A program made the translations under genes and the position numbers. The notes below the pieces were generated by a model that saw only the letters and a program-made list of their open reading frames with translations, was not told the origin of the DNA and ran no database searches. Below are positions 4,918 to 27,025 of a stretch of 39,737 nucleotides of DNA, one piece after another. The stretch's first letter is position 1. Each line of letters starts with the position of its first letter. The stretch is from positions 1 to 39,737 of the forward strand of contig JANYDH010000162.1 of the NCBI GenBank assembly GCA_025359865.1, written 5' to 3'. Source of the DNA: Actinomycetes bacterium. Its GTDB lineage: Bacteria > Actinomycetota > Acidimicrobiia > Acidimicrobiales > Ilumatobacteraceae.

Positions 4918-7900
4918 ATGTTGCGCGTGACCACCTTGTACGCGTCCACCGCCGCGGCGACGGCCGGGTATTACACGAAGTACCTGACCCAGGCCGAGGG
5001 CGAAATCCCGGGCGTGTGGGCCGGCAAGCAGGCGGCGCGGTTCGGGCTCTCCGGCCCGGTCGACGCCGAGTGTCTCGAACGGCTCCTCTCCGGCTCCGAC
5101 CCGAATTCGGGGATCACACTCGGCAACCCGTTGGTCGATCGCACCCTTGCAGATGGTCGTGTTGTTCGCGCGGTGTCCGGTTTCGATGCCACGGTGTCGG
5201 CTCCGAAGTCGCTGTCAGCGTGGTGGGCGCTCACCGGCGATCAGCGTCTGCTCGATGCGCACGACACTGCGGTCAAGGCGGTGATCGACACCTTGCAGCG
5301 GTACGGGGCAACGACTCGAATTCGCTCGAACGGCGGTCGCCTTCACCCCGATACCGAAGGGCTGACGATCGCCGCGTTCCGCCAATCGACGTCGCGGTTG
5401 GACGACCCGCAGATCCACACACACGTGGTGATCTCTGCCAGGGTGCAAGTCGACGACGGCCGCTGGTTCGCGCTCGACGCCAGGGCGCTGAAGAAGCATC
5501 AACGCACCCTTGGTGGCGTCTACCAATCGGTGCTTCGAGCCGAGCTCACCGATCGGCTCGGGGTCAGGTTCGGGGCGATCGTCAACGGCCAAGCCGAGAT
5601 CGATGGCGTCCCCCAAGAACTACTCGATGTGTTCTCGAAACGAGCCGCCCAAGTCGACGAGGCACTCGAACTCAAGGAGGACGAGTTCCGCGAGCGTGAG
5701 CAGCGCGAGCCCTCCAGGTTCGAGCACGCCGCAATGCAACGCGAAGCAGCGGCGGACACGCGTCGCAGCAAGTCCGGCAACACCGTCCCCGATCTGAGGA
5801 CACGGTGGGCCGCCGAAGCCGATGAGGTCGGCGTGACGGCCGCATCACTCCGCACAGACATCGCTCGCACCGCCCGCACGCCCGAACCCGAGCAGTCACT
5901 GGCGACCGGCGATATCGAGCGAATTCTCGCAGAGCGGGCCTCGACATGGCACCGCCTCGACGTCCTCCGAGCCCTTACCGACGAACTTCGCCCCCGTGCC
6001 GGGATAACCGGCGAGCGGTGGCTCGCGTTTCTCGAACGCTGCACCGACGAGGTGGTGAGCGCGGGCATCGATCTCGATCCGGCCGCCAGCGATACCCGCC
6101 GACGGGCAAGCGACGGGCGCTCTTTGTGGGTCGAGCCGATCGCCGCTCGCTACACCAGTGGAATAGTCCTTGCCCAGGAGGAGCAGATCGTCGTCTGGGC
6201 GATGGAACGCCAAGCAGCGGCGTCATTGCCGGCAACGACCGTGTGGACCAGTGGGCTCGACGAGATGCAAGCCGACGCCGCCGCAGCGGTTGCCGGACGG
6301 GACGAACTCGTGATCGTCGTCGGTGCCGCGGGCACCGGCAAGACGGCGATGCTCGCCCGAGCAGTCGAGCATCTCGCCGAACATCAGCGCCACGTGTTCG
6401 CAGCAGCGCCGACGGCGAAGGCCGCCCGCGTCCTTGCCCGAGAGACCGGAGCGCCCGCGGACACCGTCGCCAAGCTGATCTACGAATGGACTCGACCGGA
6501 CCGACCACCCAACCCGACGTGGAACCTGCTCGCCGGCTCAACGCTGATCATCGACGAGGCCGGCATGCTGAACACCGGCGACCTGCACACCATCACCCGA
6601 CTTGCCGACAGTAACGATTGGCGTGTCGTGCTGCTCGGCGACCCGCACCAACTCCACGCCGTTGGGCGCGGCGGCATGTTCGACGAGCTGTGCGCCAGTG
6701 GCCGGGTCAACGAACTCACCCACATCCACCGGTTCAGCGAATGGTGGGAACCCTCCGCATCCCTTGCCCTTCGTCGAGGCGACCCACAAGCCATAGCCAG
6801 CTACGCGCTGCACGACCGCATCGCCGGCGGAACGATCGAACAACACCTCGCCACGATCGCCGACCGGTGGATGGCTGCGACCGCCGACGGGCAGACCCTG
6901 GCGGTTACGGCGACAACGAACGACCACGTTGACCTCATCAATCGGACCATCCAGTGTCGACGGTTGGAATCAGGCGACATCGTCGACGACCAAGCGGCCG
7001 TCGGCATGAGCGGCCAGGCGATTCATGTCGGCGATCAGATCGCCACCCGACGCAACGACCGCCTCCTTCGCACCAGCACCGGTGACACGGTTCGCAACCG
7101 GGAGACCTGGACCGTGACCGACATCACGGATAACGGCGACTTCGTTGCTCGGCGAAACGACAGCAACGACAATGTGACGCTCCCAGCCGCTTATGTCGCC
7201 GAACACGTCCAGCTCGGCTACGCCACCACCGAACCCGGCAACCAAGGCGACACCCACGACCTCGCCCTCGCTCTCGTGACCCCAGCAACGACCAGCCGCG
7301 GCCTGTACGTCGCGATGTCTCGCGGCCGCCACGAGAACACCGCCCTGGTGGTCACCGAAGACAAGAGCATCGAAGCCGCCATCGATGTTCTCACCCAAGT
7401 CCTCTCCACCGACCGCGCCGACATGCCGGCCATCGCTCAACGCCGGGAACTCGCAGCCCAGATCCCGCCGATCGTTCGAGCCCCACAGCCCCAGCCTCGA
7501 TGCCAAGTGCCGGACTGGTGGCACACCCTCCGCGCCGACACCCAAGCATCTCTGATCGCCGTCGAAGCAGACATCAACAAAATGATCGGCGAACAAGACG
7601 CCCGTGTCGAGCGGCGGCAGTCCGCCCGCGCCGACGTCGGCCGAGCGGTCGGCGATCTCAACCCGCGCCGGCAGGCATACGCCGATGCCAGCAGCAGGCT
7701 GGACCGCGCCGAGTCGACACACAGCGACGCAGCAGCACAACTCGACAGGATCGGCCTTCGAGGTCGCCGAGCAGCCCGACAGCAACTCGCCGACGCCACC
7801 GTCGAACTGGTCGACGCCCGAAGCGCATTCGCGTCGATCAACACCATATGGCAACCACTTCGACAGACCGCCGCCAGGGCGAGCCGCAGCTACGACCTGC

Positions 7901-13341: not shown

Positions 13342-14708
13342 ATGAGTCGTCAGGATCGCGCTGTCCCCAAGAAGGCGGAGTGGGTGAAGCCAGTCGATCT
13401 CGAACGTCTATCGGACGATGAGCATCGCGCACTGGCAGCGGAGTTGCATGAGCGGTGGAGCAATGGCGAGAAGAAGTCCCCGCTTGAAGTGGAGTACTTC
13501 GGGAACGCCACGAGCCACGGCAAGTTCTTCACCGGTTATGTCAAGAAGTGGCGGGGGATCGATACCGAGGGCCGCTCGGTCCAGGCCCTCCATATAGCGC
13601 GACTCGAAGCGCTCTTACGCGCTCACGGAATTTCTCCATCTGATGCAGGTGATCTTGCTGAGGAGCATCGCCTGCTCGCCAAGTCCCGCGAGTCTGCCCT
13701 TGCCGCACTTCGCATCTATAACGATCCGTCCGCAGGCTTTCGGACTGAGGCTTTCGGACTGAGGCTTTCATCGTGTTGATGGTCATCGCGTGGAACTCGT
13801 TGCTCCAGGCGATTCTCGAACGCGACAAGGTCGACTATTACGAGCGCGGCGATGATGACCGCGTCATCGAGATCTATGGACGTGGAAAGGTAAAGGAGAC
13901 ATGGGCGCTGGTTGCCCTTGCTCTCTCCGGTACCGAGCGTCAAGGGATGCGCGCCAACCTTGACTTCTTTCTCGGCCTGCGAAACGTCATTGCTCACCGG
14001 TATTTGCCGTCGATCGATCAGGCTGTTGCTGGCGAGTCCCAAGCGATGCTGCTCAACTTCGAGTCAGTCCTTGTCGAGGAGTTCGGCGAGGAGGCGCAAC
14101 TTGGTGAGGAACTCAGTGTGCCCTTGCAGCTGACTGGGTTCCGCAACCCCAACGGCTTGACTGCCCTCAAACGAGCGCAGTCGGCGCTGCCGGTCGATGT
14201 GATGAACTTTCTGGCCCGTCATCGCGAGCAGCTGACTGATGACGTGCTCCGTGATCCTCAATATTGCCTTCAGGTGTTCTTCGTGCCGGTGACGGCGAAT
14301 CGGGAACGGTCGGCGGATGCTGCCGTTCGGTTTCTTAAGCCACCAATCCCCGACGATCTGCGCGAGCAGCTCGAAGGTCTGCTCCAGCTCAACGTTGTTG
14401 ACAAGCCCAGGCTCGTACCAGTCGTGTCCGATGATCTGCTCCGGCCCTCCGAGGTGGTAAATCTCGTGGTCGCTCGGCTGCCCTATCGATTCACCCAAGA
14501 CACGCATACCCGGTGCTGGAAGCACTACGGAGTTCGCCCGGCAAGCGACAGCAGCGAGCCTGAAGCGACGCAGCCAACGTACTGTCGCTGGGATCGGCTC
14601 ATGAAGGGTTACGGCTACACCAGGGCGTGGGTTGACCGCCTCGTCGCTGACCTGAGCGAACCTGCGGCCTACCAGCGAGTCGTCGGCTTCGTGCCCGACC
14701 CTCGATGA
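13342..14708 (+). pseudogene. DUF3644 HEPN-type gene, frameshifted by a 14-bp duplication
   Basis: Two frames together encode one DUF3644 protein. The first (13342-13779) carries ESALAALRIYNDPSAGFRTE; the second continues with LMVIAWNSLLQAI and runs to 14708. At 13737-13764 the 14-mer CTTTCGGACTGAGG is present twice in tandem, shifting the frame. Removing one copy gives a single 450-aa reading frame with FRTEAFIVLMVIAW across the join. The second half has GLRNVIAHRYL, an Rx4H motif (Arg codon 13980, His codon 13995) like that of HEPN RNases. It follows the methylase-helicase cassette and may be its effector. As written it is off, but reversible by slippage. Confidence 0.85.
13737..13764 (+). 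repeat. 14-bp tandem duplication
   Basis: CTTTCGGACTGAGG occurs at 13737-13750 and 13751-13764, followed by a partial third CTTTC. The duplication adds 14 bp (not a multiple of three) inside the DUF3644 gene. Confidence 0.95.
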
Positions 14709-14749
14709 ACTGAAATTGCCTCGTGGTAACGCTTCGTGCCGAATCGGCT

Positions 14750-14774
14750 CGAACAAGGGCGAACCAGGGCAAAC
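14750..14774 (-). repeat. 10-bp-phased CGAAC repeats at the right element end
   Basis: CGAACAAGGG (14750) and CGAACCAGGG (14760) are tandem, followed by CAAAC at 14770. Read on the minus strand these are GTTCG units at 10-bp spacing, the inverse orientation of the decamers at 153-232. They lie about 230 bp inside attR. Confidence 0.5.
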
Positions 14775-14919
14775 AGTGAAGCCGCGAAAGGCCTGTTCAG
14801 AGCGTATTTACACGAACACCGCTGAACTGCCCCGACCACCTCGGATGCGTTTCCTAAACCGCAGCTCGGTTGAATCCGTGGGTCTGCCCGTGTGGATCGT
14901 CTCAGTCGATCTCGTACAT

Positions 14920-14942
14920 AACTCTCAGAATAACTCTCAAAC
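14920..14942 (+). repeat. Element-end direct repeat, right copy
   Basis: ACTCTCAGAATAACTCTCAA and its flank match 238-260 over 22 bp with one internal mismatch. The stretch 14709-15167 between genes holds these repeats and attR but no gene I can support. Confidence 0.6.
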
Positions 14943-14999
14943 GGCCGCAAAATCTTTCCGAAGTGGCATCTACCAGGGCTTTCGCGGCATCGGGCGGAG

Positions 15000-15017
15000 T
15001 CCCGTCCACCTCCGCCA
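15000..15017 (+). repeat. attR core (18 bp)
   Basis: This is an exact copy of the last 18 bp of tRNA-Sec including CCA. The sequence upstream is not tRNA-like, so this is the distal attachment site rather than a second tRNA gene. Confidence 0.85.
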
Positions 15018-15167
15018 CGAACATGCAGCTCAGAGGCTGTTTCATCTCCCAAAGTCGCCCTATTGGTCACAGAATGGTCACGGCGGGAATGGGTGGTGGT
15101 CGGCCGTGTCGCTCAATCGCTCTATTGTCGGTTGATATTGCTCGAAAATGGAGCGATACTCGGAGGC

Positions 15168-18006: not shown

Positions 18007-18500
18007 TCAAGGGGCAAGCAGAGAGTCGGCTCGCAATGCGGCGTCCTCGTCGTCGCCCGGCAAGACGTGCGCGTACACCTTCAACGTGACGCCGACGTCT
18101 GCGTGGCCGATTCGCTGCGACACGACCTTCACCGGCACGCCGCTCGCGAGTGCGGCTGTTGCGTAGCTGTGCCGTAGGTCGTGCAGCCGAATGGGCGGCA
18201 ACCCGGCGCGCTTGGCGAGATCGACGAAGCGGTTGGAGAAGGCCTCCGGATTCGGAGGCGAGCCGTCGACGTTCGTCACGACGAGCCCGCTGCGGTCGGC
18301 CCACGAGGCGCCGGCGAGGAGATGATCGGCGCTTTGCTGGCGCTTCCACGCTCGGAACGCTGCGGCGGTCGCAGGACCGATGGCGATGGTTCGGTTGCCG
18401 CGGGCCGTTTTCGGTGTCGAGGTAGTGATAGTCGTCCCGTAGCGAACACGAGTGGAGCGGATCGTGACCGTGCCAGCCTCGAGGTCGACGTCCGACCCAC
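18007..18500 (-). pseudogene. C-terminal fragment of a tyrosine integrase
   Basis: One open minus-strand frame from about 18500 to a stop at 18007 encodes the C-terminal ~160 residues of a tyrosine recombinase. It begins in GSDVDLEAGTVTIRS, continues with TPKTARGNRTIAIGP (catalytic Lys region) and ends with RLHDLRHSYATAALAS, SQRIGHADVGVTLKVYAHVL (HxxR, His, Tyr). The core-binding domain and the catalytic Arg box are missing. The break coincides with the truncated 5' end of the Abi-like gene on the other strand, so one rearrangement truncated both. Confidence 0.8.
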
Positions 18501-19180
18501 GCGCCGCCGTGCAGCTCTACGAACGCAACGTCGAGATCTCGGCGGCTGCATGGGTGGTCATCTCTGACATTGAGATCGTGCTTCGAAACATCGTCGCCGA
18601 TTCGATGACGGCGCACCATGCGGCAACGCGGTCCAGCGTCAACTATCGATGGTATGACGATCCGACGTGGTTCGTGACCGGTCAAAAGTGGTTCACGTCG
18701 GAAACGTTGCGTTCGATTGCGACCGCAATGAGTCGCGTCGGTGACCCTGGCCCGACTGGAGCGCCCCGCCCTCCCGAGGGGCGCGTCGTGGCCGAGTTGA
18801 CGCTCGGGTTCTGGCGATACTTGTTGGTCAGCAGATACGAGCACAGCCTCTGGAACCCTTCGATCCGCAGCAGCTTCCACGGTCTGAGCCACCTGTCCGG
18901 CTCCGACAGTCGCAAGGCGGTGTACTCCGCTGTCGAACGGCTGAACTACCTGCGCAACCGGGTCGCGCATCACGAACCGATCTACGAACCATTCACCATC
19001 CCCGGCCACCCCGGCGGACCGATCGATGCTCGCCAGACTCTCACGAATGCAATTGAGATGATTTCATGGGCCAACCCCGCCGCCGCACAATGGATCGAAC
19101 GACGCAGCACACTGACGCGAGCGGGCCGCTGGCGTCATCTCGGCCACTCAGCCCGGGACATTGCCCGACCCTCGCTGTAG
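18452..19180 (+). CDS. Abi-like (Abi_2/HEPN) protein, 5' end replaced
   Basis: An abortive-infection-like protein whose recognisable part runs from about 18497: AAVQLYERNVEISAAAWVVI then DIEIVLRNIVADSM. It closes with VERLNYLRNRVAHHEPIYEP, an Rx4H HEPN RNase motif. The family normally has 20-30 residues before AAVQLYERN; here that region is antisense to an integrase fragment, so the native start is lost. A GTG at 18452 keeps the frame open and could give a chimeric 242-aa protein. Abi_2 proteins act as phage-triggered RNases; whether this copy is expressed is unknown. It ends 11 bp from the convergent integrase. Confidence 0.7.
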   Translation: MERIVTVPASRSTSDPRAAVQLYERNVEISAAAWVVISDIEIVLRNIVADSMTAHHAATRSSVNYRWYDDPTWFVTGQKWFTSETLRSIATAMSRVGDPGPTGAPRPPEGRVVAELTLGFWRYLLVSRYEHSLWNPSIRSSFHGLSHLSGSDSRKAVYSAVERLNYLRNRVAHHEPIYEPFTIPGHPGGPIDARQTLTNAIEMISWANPAAAQWIERRSTLTRAGRWRHLGHSARDIARPSL

Positions 19181-21800: not shown

Positions 21801-21911
21801 GTGGCCAAGTCGGTCGACGAGTTCGCCGATGTGGTCGTCGAGATCCATCCGGGCTTGAAGCGACCGAAAGTTGGAGGGCGGCGTGTCGCGTTTGGTGTTC
21901 ATTCGGCGTGA
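21801..21911 (+). pseudogene. C-terminal gene fragment inside the first 73-bp repeat
   Basis: A 36-codon plus-strand frame (VAKSVDEFADVVVEIHPGLK, then RPKVGGRRVAFG) ends at 21911. The same tail, PGLKRPKVGGRRVAFGAHPS, is encoded by the second 73-bp repeat, so the repeat seems to be the 3' end of a once larger gene. The protein family is not recognised. Confidence 0.4.
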
Positions 21912-21919
21912 CCGATCGC
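21847..21919 (+). repeat. 73-bp direct repeat, copy 1
   Basis: This is 68/73 identical to 23678-23750, in direct orientation and 1831 bp apart. It lies downstream of the DUF4143 gene. The surrounding stretch 21722-22131 holds otherwise only a short gene fragment and a 31-bp palindrome. Confidence 0.85.
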
Positions 21920-22131: not shown

Positions 22132-23415
22132 TTACGGGACGAGCAGGGCGAGCGGTATGACGGCGATGCCGTCGGGACGTCGGTAGGCCTCGGGGCCGGT
22201 GTTGAGCACGACGGAGTCGATGCAGTCATCGCCGAGTTCGTTGCGGAGCCAGCGCAGGTGCGAGACGTGAGTGTCGTTGACAGCCGCCGACAGTTTGACC
22301 TCGATGGCGACGAGGCCGCCGTCTGCTTCGACGATGAAGTCCACTTCGTGTCGTCCGCCCTTGGTGCGCAGGTGTGAGACGCGGGCGTCGCGGGACTGTG
22401 CGAGCGTGCGGACCGAGAGTGCGGCGAGCGATTCGAACAGGCTTCCGAGGAACGTTCCGTCTCGGGGGACGCTCGTGGACGGGCTCACCCCGGTGAGCAG
22501 TTGGGTTGCGCTTGCTCTGACCAATCGAGCAGCGAGCGCCGGGTCGGCGAGGTGATGCTTCGGGGCGCCGGTGAGTGCGTTGAGGTGGTTGTTCGACGGG
22601 ACCCACGCGGGGATCGGGTCGAGGATCCGTAGGGCGGTGAGCAACTCGATGTAGGGCTGGGTGGTCGTCCTCGCCGGTTTGTCGTCGATGCCGCTGGTCG
22701 CTGCATTGCGGATCTTGTCCCAGGAGGTCGTGGTGGCGGTGGCAGCGGCGTAGGCGCGGAGCCAGGCGAGGACCGTGGCTGGTCGGCGGACGTTGAACCC
22801 GGCTTCGGGGAGGTCGTGGTCGACGATCCGTTCGATGTAGCTGTCGAGTTGTCGATCTCTGGGTCTGCCGTCGAGGCGTCGCATCCCCGGGAAGCCTCCG
22901 GCGACGATCTCTTCTGTGTAGTCGGCAAGTGTGAGATCGGTTCGGCCCTCGATCGCAGCAGTGCCGGTGAGCAGGCTCCGGAAGGACACGCCGTGTTCGG
23001 GTGGGCAACGTTCGGACAGGCAGAGTGGCCGCAGTCGTAGTGTAGTGATGCGGCCGGCGCCGGAGTGCGTCTGGGTGCTCGAGGCAGATCCGGTGAGCAG
23101 GAAGTGGCCGCCGGTCGGGTCGTCGTCGACGAGTCGACGCACGGCGTCGAAAACGGCCGGAACACGCTGCCACTCGTCGATCAGCAACGGTGACGGGTCC
23201 CGCCCGATGATCGCCGGGTCGGCCTGGACGATCTCGCGTTCGGATGCAACGTCGAGTCGGCGGATCGAGCGGCACCGCTGCGTCGCGGTAGCGGTCTTGC
23301 CGACTCCCTTGGGGCCGTCGAGCAACAGCGCAGGTAACTGCGCGAACAGCTCGTCGATCTCGTCGTCGATAATGCGCCGCACGTAGGTGCCCAGGAAGTC
23401 GACACGATTCGCCAT
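22132..23415 (-). CDS. AAA ATPase with DUF4143 (PD-(D/E)XK-like) domain
   Basis: A complete 427-aa ATPase. Walker A is LLLDGPKGVGKTAT (around residue 32), Walker B LLIDEWQR, and HFLLTGSAS is the sensor-type motif following it. The C-terminal DUF4143 part contains GGRHEVDFIVEADGGLVAIE followed by VKLS, a PD-(D/E)XK-like core. Such genes are common in actinobacterial accessory DNA, and their function is not known. The ATG at 23415 has no ribosome site and may be leaderless. Upstream are two copies of a 10-bp motif 23 bp apart, and the gene is bracketed by 73-bp direct repeats. Confidence 0.9.
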   Translation of the reverse strand: MANRVDFLGTYVRRIIDDEIDELFAQLPALLLDGPKGVGKTATATQRCRSIRRLDVASEREIVQADPAIIGRDPSPLLIDEWQRVPAVFDAVRRLVDDDPTGGHFLLTGSASSTQTHSGAGRITTLRLRPLCLSERCPPEHGVSFRSLLTGTAAIEGRTDLTLADYTEEIVAGGFPGMRRLDGRPRDRQLDSYIERIVDHDLPEAGFNVRRPATVLAWLRAYAAATATTTSWDKIRNAATSGIDDKPARTTTQPYIELLTALRILDPIPAWVPSNNHLNALTGAPKHHLADPALAARLVRASATQLLTGVSPSTSVPRDGTFLGSLFESLAALSVRTLAQSRDARVSHLRTKGGRHEVDFIVEADGGLVAIEVKLSAAVNDTHVSHLRWLRNELGDDCIDSVVLNTGPEAYRRPDGIAVIPLALLVP

Positions 23416-23451
23416 AACGTCAACGCTACACCCCGAGCGTCCACAACACTG

Positions 23452-23484
23452 CTACTGGTGCGTTTCAGACAAGACTATTGGTGC
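23452..23484 (-). promoter_or_regulatory. Two 10-bp repeats 23 bp apart upstream of the DUF4143 gene
   Basis: CTACTGGTGC (23452-23461) and CTATTGGTGC (23475-23484) are 9/10 identical with starts exactly 23 bp apart, 37 bp before the DUF4143 start codon. The same 23-bp spacing recurs in front of the other DUF4143 gene in this window. Confidence 0.45.
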
Positions 23485-23573: not shown

Positions 23574-23680
23574 GTGTTCGTCAGCGACCTCCGACACTTC
23601 CTCGACCTGCCTGACGATGCGCCGGCACCGGCGAGGCGGCTCGGTCTGCAACTCGCGGCAATCGTGCGCGCCACGCGATC
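23574..23680 (+). pseudogene. 5' fragment of an unrecognised small gene
   Basis: From GTG 23574 the frame reads VFVSDLRHFLDLPDDAPAPA, then RRLGLQLAAIVRAT, a plausible N-terminus. It runs straight into the 73-bp repeat at 23678, where the sense is lost. I take it as a gene cut by whatever placed the repeat. No function can be assigned. Confidence 0.4.
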
Positions 23681-23750
23681 CGGGCTTGAAGCGACCGAAG
23701 GTTGGAGGGCGGCGTGTCGCGTTTGGTGCTCATCCGTCGTGACCGATTGC
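23678..23750 (+). repeat. 73-bp direct repeat, copy 2
   Basis: This is 68/73 identical to 21847-21919. It lies upstream of the DUF4143 gene, so the two copies bracket that gene. Its left edge coincides with the break in the small gene fragment at 23574-23680. Confidence 0.85.
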
Positions 23751-26231: not shown

Positions 26232-26317
26232 CTCGGATCTGGAACGTATCACCCCTCTGATTTAGAAAGATAAAGCCCTCGGATCTGGAACGTAGAGTGG
26301 CTCGGATCTGGAAAGTA
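26232..26317 (+). repeat. Four direct repeats at exact 23-bp spacing
   Basis: CTCGGATCTGGAACGTA starts at 26232 and 26278; CTCGGATCTGGAAAGTA at 26301; a degenerate CTCTGATTTAGAAAGAT at 26255. All starts are 23 bp apart. The last copy ends one base before the start codon of the DUF4143-type gene. An operator array or a multi-copy protein-binding site is the likely role; this is not a CRISPR (units too short, spacers 6 bp). Confidence 0.85.
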
Positions 26318-26318
26318 G

Positions 26319-27025
26319 ATGGCCTTTGCTGGTGCAATGCTCTTTCCGTCGATCGACCGTCGGATCCTGTCGATCGTCGAGGATCGGCTGGCTGACGCAC
26401 CGGTCGTGGTGCTGCAGGGTGCGCGTTCTGTTGGCAAGTCCACCGTGCTCGCCGAACTCGCCCGCCGTCATGACGTCGAGATCACCGATCTCGACGATGT
26501 CGTCGTCCGCGCTCGGGTGCAGGCGTCGCAGTCGGACGCTGTACGGGGGCCGTCACCGGTCTGCATCGATGAGCACCAGCATGTGCCCGAACTGCTGCAG
26601 GCGATCAAGGCTGAGTTGAACCGACAGCACGACAACGGCCGGTGGCTCCTCACCGGCTCTGCTTCGTTCTGGGCGATGCCTCGCGGTACCCAGGCTCTCA
26701 CGGTGACAACTACACCCGCCTCCTCGAAGCGCTGTTCCTCATCCGTCGACTGTCGGCATGGGGGCGGACACTGCGATCCAGGACTGCGCATTCGCCGAAG
26801 CTGCATGTCGTCGACTCCGGTCTCGCTGCGTACTTACTCGGTATCACGCCCGAGAATCTAGAAGTCGACACCAAGGCGCTGCGTGGTCTTGTAGCGCTGC
26901 GTGACAGCCTCGGCGACCAATTCCGCGCCGGATATTTCCTCAACACCGGCAGCGAGGCATACCAGATCGACGACCGCATCTTCGTCTGTCCCATCGACCG
27001 GCTGTGGCAGACCAACGGCACGTGA
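26319..27025 (+). pseudogene. Decayed DUF4143 AAA ATPase
   Basis: The first frame (ATG 26319) has Walker A VVVLQGARSVGKSTV, Walker B VCIDEHQHVPE and RWLLTGSASFWAMP. After about residue 125 the sequence jumps, in another frame, to NYTRLLEALFLIRRLSAWGR, SPKLHVVDSGLAAYLLG, then straight to EVDTKALRGLVALRDSLGDQ and QIDDRIFVCPIDRLW. Two stretches of the normal ~400-aa protein are missing: the middle, and the part holding the PD-(D/E)XK core. It is related to but clearly distinct from the intact copy at 22132-23415. Confidence 0.8.

Follow-up and report, generated by a model that had tools for sequence, protein, structure and literature searches.

Direct-repeat arrays precede most genes in two large branches of the DUF4143 ATPase family, with spacing set by clade and usually a different word for each gene

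Why should a DUF4143 ATPase gene be preceded by short direct repeats in strict register? The question arises from a 39,737-nucleotide stretch of an Ilumatobacteraceae genome (contig JANYDH010000162.1; in the following, the window), which carries on its plus strand, at 26232..26317, a head-to-tail array of the word CTCGGATCTGGAACGTA. Its four copies occupy positions 26232-26248, 26255-26271, 26278-26294 and 26301-26317, with starts (26232, 26255, 26278 and 26301) in exact 23-bp steps. Copies 1 and 3 are identical across 17 bp, copies 3 and 4 agree at 16 of 17 positions and copy 2 is degenerate. With a TRF score of 76, it outscores every other tandem array of the window. Its self-match at lag 23 is 16/17; among 100 dinucleotide-shuffled versions of the window the best value was 15/17, reached in two of them, and the combined three-copy score of 28 compares with a shuffled maximum of 24. 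By eye, it resembles the arrays of the relatives L324 and L336. Elsewhere in the window, positions 13734-13769 hold a perfect 14-bp tandem repeat, AGGCTTTCGGACTG, in 2.6 copies.

The final copy of the 17-mer stops at 26317, a single base short of an ATG at 26319. The initial annotation, which described a 17-bp motif in four copies with starts 23 bp apart ending one base before an ATG, is confirmed, with the qualification that copy 2 is degenerate. It had also taken the array to abut the start of a DUF4143 gene; here the adjacency to an ATG stands, whereas an intact gene does not. The AAA_14-DUF4143 gene downstream of the array (26319..27025, plus strand) is broken, and its Pfam matches fall in two frames, the AAA_14 part in that of 26319-26861 and the DUF4143 part in that of 26642-27025. 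The ATPase part is closest to L310, L336 and L324 (52-54%), and comparison with the N-termini of relatives makes ATG 26337 a likelier original start than 26319.

The other DUF4143 gene of the window, on the minus strand at 22132..23415, is intact and encodes AAA_14 followed by DUF4143 in one protein (PF13173, 1.4e-12; PF13635, 5.3e-21). It matches PADLOC model PDLC04790 at 1.6e-78 and, on the evidence of Pfam, PADLOC and AlphaFold2, is an AAA_14-winged helix-turn-helix-PD-(D/E)XK ATPase of the PDC-S01 type. Its own 23-bp array (23452..23484, minus strand) comprises the units GCACCAATAG (23475-23484) and GCACCAGTAG (23452-23461) and possibly a third, degenerate unit near 23424-23438. The two-copy motif first reported here, CTACTGGTGC at 23452 and CTATTGGTGC at 23475, is present as described and is weak when taken alone, scoring 12/17 at lag 23 against 11/17 at lags 32 and 18; by eye, it is related to the GGTAGCG arrays of the relatives of this gene. 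A -10-like hexamer, TAGCGT (23423..23428, minus strand), lies 7 nt upstream of the ATG, which predicts a leaderless start. Gene and array are flanked by a 73-nt direct repeat (21847-21919 and 23678-23750, 93% identical), as if both had been inserted or duplicated together. An Abi_2/AbiD-like gene at 18452-19180 lies near the DUF4143 genes of the window and may form a small defence cluster with PDC-S01.

The check that the initial annotation had set for itself was an enrichment of 23-bp periodicity upstream of many DUF4143 genes. The genome of the window contains 15 DUF4143 matches, 10 of which were listed for analysis; L032, L037, L043, L044 and L045, being partial or the broken gene of the window, were omitted. 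By eye, L034 carries GGGACGATY in four units and L038 carries GTGRAAYAGTAGCGTA in two, in both cases exactly 23 bp apart. DUF4143 is present in 10 of 31 genomes sampled from the bacterial family and in at least 53 of 148 sampled from the order, where G126 and G157 each have at least 23 matches. The loci of the order set were taken from the matches listed and from 60 further listed matches, with some partial ones skipped. A rule demanding both Walker A and Walker B motifs yielded an open reading frame in 104 of 112 loci, 103 of which were long enough; L286, excluded by this rule, has an array by eye. The best single lag was 23 bp in 46 of the 103 usable upstream regions and 21-24 bp in 66 of them, as compared with 23 bp in 4 of 103 regions inside genes. 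Averaged across 100 upstream regions of the order set, self-match has its peak at lag 23 (z = 23) and another at lag 46 (z = 16), with lesser excesses at lags 12 (z = 8.0) and 22 (z = 7.5). The proposed 23-bp enrichment thus came through the test by which it could have been refuted. No lag-23 peak was found in gene-internal, downstream or far-upstream controls (means 9.05, 9.08 and 8.66 versus 11.57 upstream), where peaks occur at multiples of three only. Unlike DUF4143, the sibling family DUF234, whose ATPases are also AAA/STAND-like, has no comparable array: of its 18 matches 16 were scanned, and none of the 14 usable upstream regions had a strong lag either at 22-24 or at 31-34.

Beyond the order, two periods appear. 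Fifty genomes from other phyla were picked via an unrelated pattern search (50 of 119 genome stretches used), and 22 of them had DUF4143, with as many as 27 matches in Solobacterium G187, 21 in SAR324 G186 and 19 in Bacteroidales G214. From 70 loci, including 40 hand-picked DUF4143 matches, 57 were usable, and these genes show lag peaks at 23 and at 32-33. We placed proteins from many phyla on a FastTree tree, keeping 167 of 173 after length filters. The 66 genes with clear arrays, 47 at 22-24 and 19 at 31-34, require only 2 changes of spacing label on this tree, whereas 1000 shuffles of the labels gave a mean of 16.9 and a minimum of 12; one labelled gene, L411, is ambiguous (15/17 at 31, 14/17 at 23). 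Array spacing follows protein clade.

Since clades A and B were drawn from the tree with the labels already known, lag counts within them describe this relationship and do not test it. In clade A, the best lag is 22-24 in 72 of 83 genes, the other 11 falling outside this class, with z values of 45.5 at lag 23, 26.7 at 46 and 10.3 at 69. The best lag in clade B is 31-34 in 24 of 35 genes, again with 11 outside, and z reaches 16.0 at lag 32 and 13.7 at 33. A single shuffle per clade gave 4 and 2 genes, respectively. The remaining 49 genes ('clade C', a mere remainder) have no clear peak; 8 lie at 22-24 and 3 at 31-34 (5 and 5 after shuffling), and the highest z is 4.2, at lag 21. They belong to the DUF4143 family too, as seen for the two of them that were scanned, yet lack a clear array, which weighs against an operator function. 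The suggestion of one period with differing sequences is borne out by the family, with two amendments: the second clade has its period at 32-33 bp, and the rest is without a clear array.

Plasmid and viral sequences carry the same two classes. All six plasmid homologues of the window gene that we considered (from Prosthecochloris, Actinomyces, Lentilactobacillus, Collinsella, Thioclava and Agrobacterium; 6 of 30 listed, 180 records matched) have a best lag of 22 or 23, with scores of 12-15/17. Among six clade B homologues on plasmids (6 of 15 listed, 59 records matched), the lag is 32 or 33 in five (Segatella, Criblamydia, Fusobacterium, Glaesserella and Collinsella), with a tie with lag 20 in the Fusobacterium homologue (L454 ties 32 with 20); Bacteroides L456 has no 32-33 array. 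In IMG/VR, 15 of the 30 open reading frames listed looked clade B-like, duplicates included, and 8 of these 15 have a best lag of 33 and one of 34. L458 has no lag entry.

An operator for autoregulation should lie in the promoter of its own gene. In the order set, a TANNNT hexamer is found 5-8 nt (mode 6) before an in-frame ATG or GTG in 85 of 104 genes, compared with 16 of 208 off-frame tests, the in-frame figure being the best of several starts. The last 13-bp core of clade A arrays starts 34-18 bp before this hexamer in 26 of 41 genes. In the other 15 it lies further upstream (7), nearer (3) or overlapping the hexamer (5), and the groups of 7 and 5 speak against an operator. Counted with at most two bases of overlap, the last core is upstream of the -10 hexamer in 36 of the 41 genes. 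Judged from predicted elements, most clade A arrays stop shortly before a -10-like hexamer and a predicted leaderless start, and the expectation of a site in its own promoter is met for clade A genes of the window's own order, for predicted promoters and without mapped transcripts. Clade A shows no clear TTGACA -35 element where one would be expected (2.79 versus 2.50 displaced, n = 56), and activation and repression cannot therefore be separated by this route. In clade B, L466 (gene starting at 1360) and L472 (minus-strand gene starting at 7828) seem by eye to have a copy on the -10 element or beyond it, a position that would favour repression.

While the spacing is common to a clade, the word is not. 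Among 54 genes with good arrays, the word is common to all 13 protein pairs above 70% identity, to 18% of 11 pairs at 60-70%, to 5% of 91 pairs at 50-60% and to 0-2% at lower identity. The mean correlation of the position weight matrices is 0.26 at 30-35% identity, 0.44 at 55-60% and 0.74 above 85%. Words are essentially unrelated below 50% protein identity, which is a point against an operator. Exact copies are confined to the array itself in G006 (3 copies), G187 (3) and G182 (4), and at 2-3 mismatches these words give 18, 0 and 1 matches (31, 0 and 1 for the reversed control). The window word likewise has three exact copies in its genome (G000), all within its array. With up to two mismatches it has 46 genome matches versus 14 for the reversed control, and 43 of them lie outside the array; at this looser stringency the word is therefore not private, and this, too, is unfavourable to an operator. 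In a search of genome contigs and viral sequences for the window word occurring twice at 19-28 bp, 2 of the 250 pairs listed were at lag 23; the lag counts resemble coding coincidences, and the search was discarded as uninformative.

Closely related genes may keep their word. By eye, most members of the L281 subfamily (53-69% identical) have an GAAANGGTAGCGTAG-like word at 23 bp, with exceptions such as L536, L544, L546 and the window gene. WP_012509575.1, a homologue on the Prosthecochloris (Chlorobiota) plasmid pPAES01 that is 56.8% identical to the window protein, has an CGAAACGGTAGCGTA-type array, as do the actinobacterial L281 and L282. As inferred from this case, a word can travel across phyla along with its gene, in at least one transfer. 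Paralogues within one genome do not have words in common (0 of 30 within-genome pairs). We also considered an extra divergence between such paralogues and rejected it: these 30 pairs, at most 57% identical, behave as between-genome pairs do, and there is accordingly no evidence for selection against cross-talk. A palindromic operator was discarded as well, since the units score 7.03 versus 6.83 for shuffled ones (n = 66). The word differs between most genes and is largely private to each.

All of the 12 DUF4143 proteins scanned, drawn from clades A and B and the remainder, match PADLOC PDC-S01 models. The Pfam matches of the intact proteins scanned are to AAA_14, DUF4143 and weaker AAA/ATPase families, with one Bac_DnaA match below the cut-off and no Rep (replication-initiator) family. 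An alignment of 103 proteins shows almost no variation at the PD-(D/E)XK residues (E 0.99, D 1.00, E 0.99, K 0.99) or at Walker A and B; the latter conservation is partly by construction, because the selection rule demanded both motifs. Confident AlphaFold2 models of the window protein (22132-23415; pLDDT 86.6, pTM 0.90) and of the clade B-like L485 (pLDDT 90.6, pTM 0.90) were obtained. The nearest solved folds to the former are the archaeal STAND ATPases 2qen and 2fna, followed by CED-4/NLR proteins, with Orc1/Cdc6 bound to origin DNA at Foldseek rank 3. The window protein hence has the ATPase and winged-helix fold of a STAND protein, in fold only and not in mechanism. From the model and the family we infer that helices 212-224, 232-239 and 249-261 with the strands that follow form a winged helix, a module that in STAND proteins is often structural, which argues against a DNA-reading role.

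With overall identity held constant, local identity tracks word similarity best at residues 231-257, a stretch of the predicted winged helix that runs from its second to its third helix (93 genes of clade A and extra homologues, 752 pairs). The maximum (r = 0.29) lies at residues 248-256, and values stay close to zero across the ATPase and nuclease parts. This peak was reached in none of 300 free permutations, but in 143 of 300 when permutation was restricted to within two blocks. Moreover, the signal is lost in the 70 genes outside the 23-gene L281 subfamily, to the detriment of an operator model, while within that subfamily taken by itself the best segment of 50 residues begins at residue 219 and the highest single window is 334-342. 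Adding homologues from two subfamilies gave too small a set to make the test stronger (9 of 12 gave only 10-11 of 15). As support for the winged helix as reader of the word, the covariation is suggestive and driven by one subfamily.

Arrays thus precede most genes in two large branches of the DUF4143 family, a very common and uncharacterised group of bacterial ATPase-nucleases, usually with a different word for each gene, and probably let each DUF4143 protein recognize and control its own gene. Starting from the observed arrays, spacing classes, gene-specific words, placement at predicted promoters and conserved nuclease-type residues, we propose, with reasonable though not full confidence, that the array serves as an autoregulatory operator embedded in the promoter, to which the ATPase encoded by the gene itself binds. 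The predicted winged helix-turn-helix, situated between the STAND-like ATPase and the PD-(D/E)XK-type domain, would read a non-palindromic, essentially private word of about 12-17 bp present in 2-6 head-to-tail copies in its own promoter. Protomers would sit two helical turns apart in clade A (23 bp) and three apart in clade B (32-33 bp), and could oligomerize along the DNA. In clade A the last copy mostly covers or adjoins the -35 position, upstream of -10, so that binding would control access of RNA polymerase. We lean slightly towards repression over activation, since a core near -35 fits repression; activation of the MalT kind is not excluded. Binding by the protein itself, oligomerization and the sign of regulation remain inferences, without binding or expression data.

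Could the array instead be the working target of the ATPase-nuclease, as a self-tag, a centromere- or origin-like site, or the seat of a sensor held inactive until invading DNA displaces the protein? The near-invariant nuclease-type residues and the listing of the family as candidate defence PDC-S01 would suit such a role, as would the likeness of direct repeats two helical turns apart beside the binder's gene to iterons and the rank of Orc1/Cdc6 on origin DNA. However, clade A arrays sit at predicted promoters, as an operator predicts, up to 27 family matches occur per genome, unlike origins, and inspection by eye of the 12 annotated loci showed no partner gene in common; we regard a target role as unlikely. 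A more elaborate picture, which we offer only as doubtful speculation, makes DUF4143/PDC-S01 a sensor for defence that rests, as a helical oligomer, on its private array. The array would both silence the gene and serve as self-reference, paralogue-rich genomes (at least 20) would possess a repertoire of mutually orthogonal sensors, and the ATPase-nuclease would be released by invading DNA or when the array is lost.

Control by host regulators encoded elsewhere deserves mention because trans control of promoters is common and because five of the 12 annotated plasmid loci (L448, L449, L453, L455 and L456) have HTH-type regulators, of differing kinds, in their flanks, an observation that counts against autoregulation. 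Yet exact words are limited to one promoter, none of the 30 within-genome paralogue pairs shares a word, words can persist across phyla with the gene, spacing tracks protein clade, and no neighbour gene is common to these 12 loci as a partner regulator (flanks of 2.5-3 kb, by eye). For these reasons an unrelated regulator is disfavoured, the five HTH genes notwithstanding, and we give this explanation little credence. Still less probable is a function in RNA, as a repeated leader structure. The few clade B loci with a copy near or past a -10-like element (L466 and L472) would allow it, but clade A transcripts are predicted to be leaderless, with the last core upstream of -10 in 36 of 41 genes. 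Finally, some arrays, such as those of L344 and L392, are near-perfect duplications and might suggest chance or neutral tandem duplication before a start codon; a single lag per protein clade, peaks at 46 and 69 bp and the absence of a control peak at 23 leave this virtually no room, and the spacing statistics had already disfavoured it. The array is a predicted cognate DNA site of PDC-S01 ATPases, readable from sequence alone. The spacing rule predicts oligomer geometry by clade, natural protein-word pairs are at hand for studying specificity change in a winged helix, and what DUF4143 ATPases bind becomes a directly testable question.

Autoregulatory direct-repeat operators, the kind to which we assign these arrays by inference, are known; new are the family-wide spacing rule and the gene-specific words, undescribed in the literature searched. 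No description of the arrays was found in the PMC open literature, outside which lie most subscription papers and all bioRxiv preprints. PDC-S01, a candidate defence system in PADLOC, is described in the available part of a 2026 article as an ATPase fused to a PD-(D/E)XK member and as the fourth commonest defence in prokaryotes, with 9,986 archaeal and 29,494 bacterial systems; most PDCs in the core defensome are reported there to await validation (PMC12988326). The words 'promoter' and 'direct repeat' are absent from the main text of that article in the portion accessible (PMC12988326). According to the accessible part of another article, the Thermus thermophilus DUF4143 gene TT_P0211 is raised 6.6-fold in the joint presence of a plasmid and TtAgo (PMC4406477). 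We take TT_P0211, judged by position, to be the DUF4143-like CDS 13854-15074 (minus strand) of L578 (pTT27), which has no array upstream; as the presumed gene lacks one, its induction is no evidence for control by an array.

In structure, the window protein aligns with PABY2304 (2qen) and SSO1545 (2fna) over 251 residues (Z 15.9 and 14.6, rmsd 4.1), but at only 18% and 15% identity and with its PD-(D/E)XK-type C-terminal domain barely covered. Iterons of plasmid replication initiators are direct repeats with a spacing of about two helical turns, adjacent to the gene whose product binds them. DUF4143 arrays resemble them in this spacing and in adjoining the gene of the putative binder, as an iteron replicon would require, and differ from them in the STAND-like ATPase-nuclease, the promoter position of the array, the many paralogues per genome with differing words and the 32-33 bp class. 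MalT is a STAND activator that binds direct repeats near -35 as an ATP-dependent oligomer and serves a regulon with one consensus. DUF4143 shares with it the STAND-type protein and the direct repeats near -35, whereas in the four genomes checked its exact words occur only in the promoter of their own gene.
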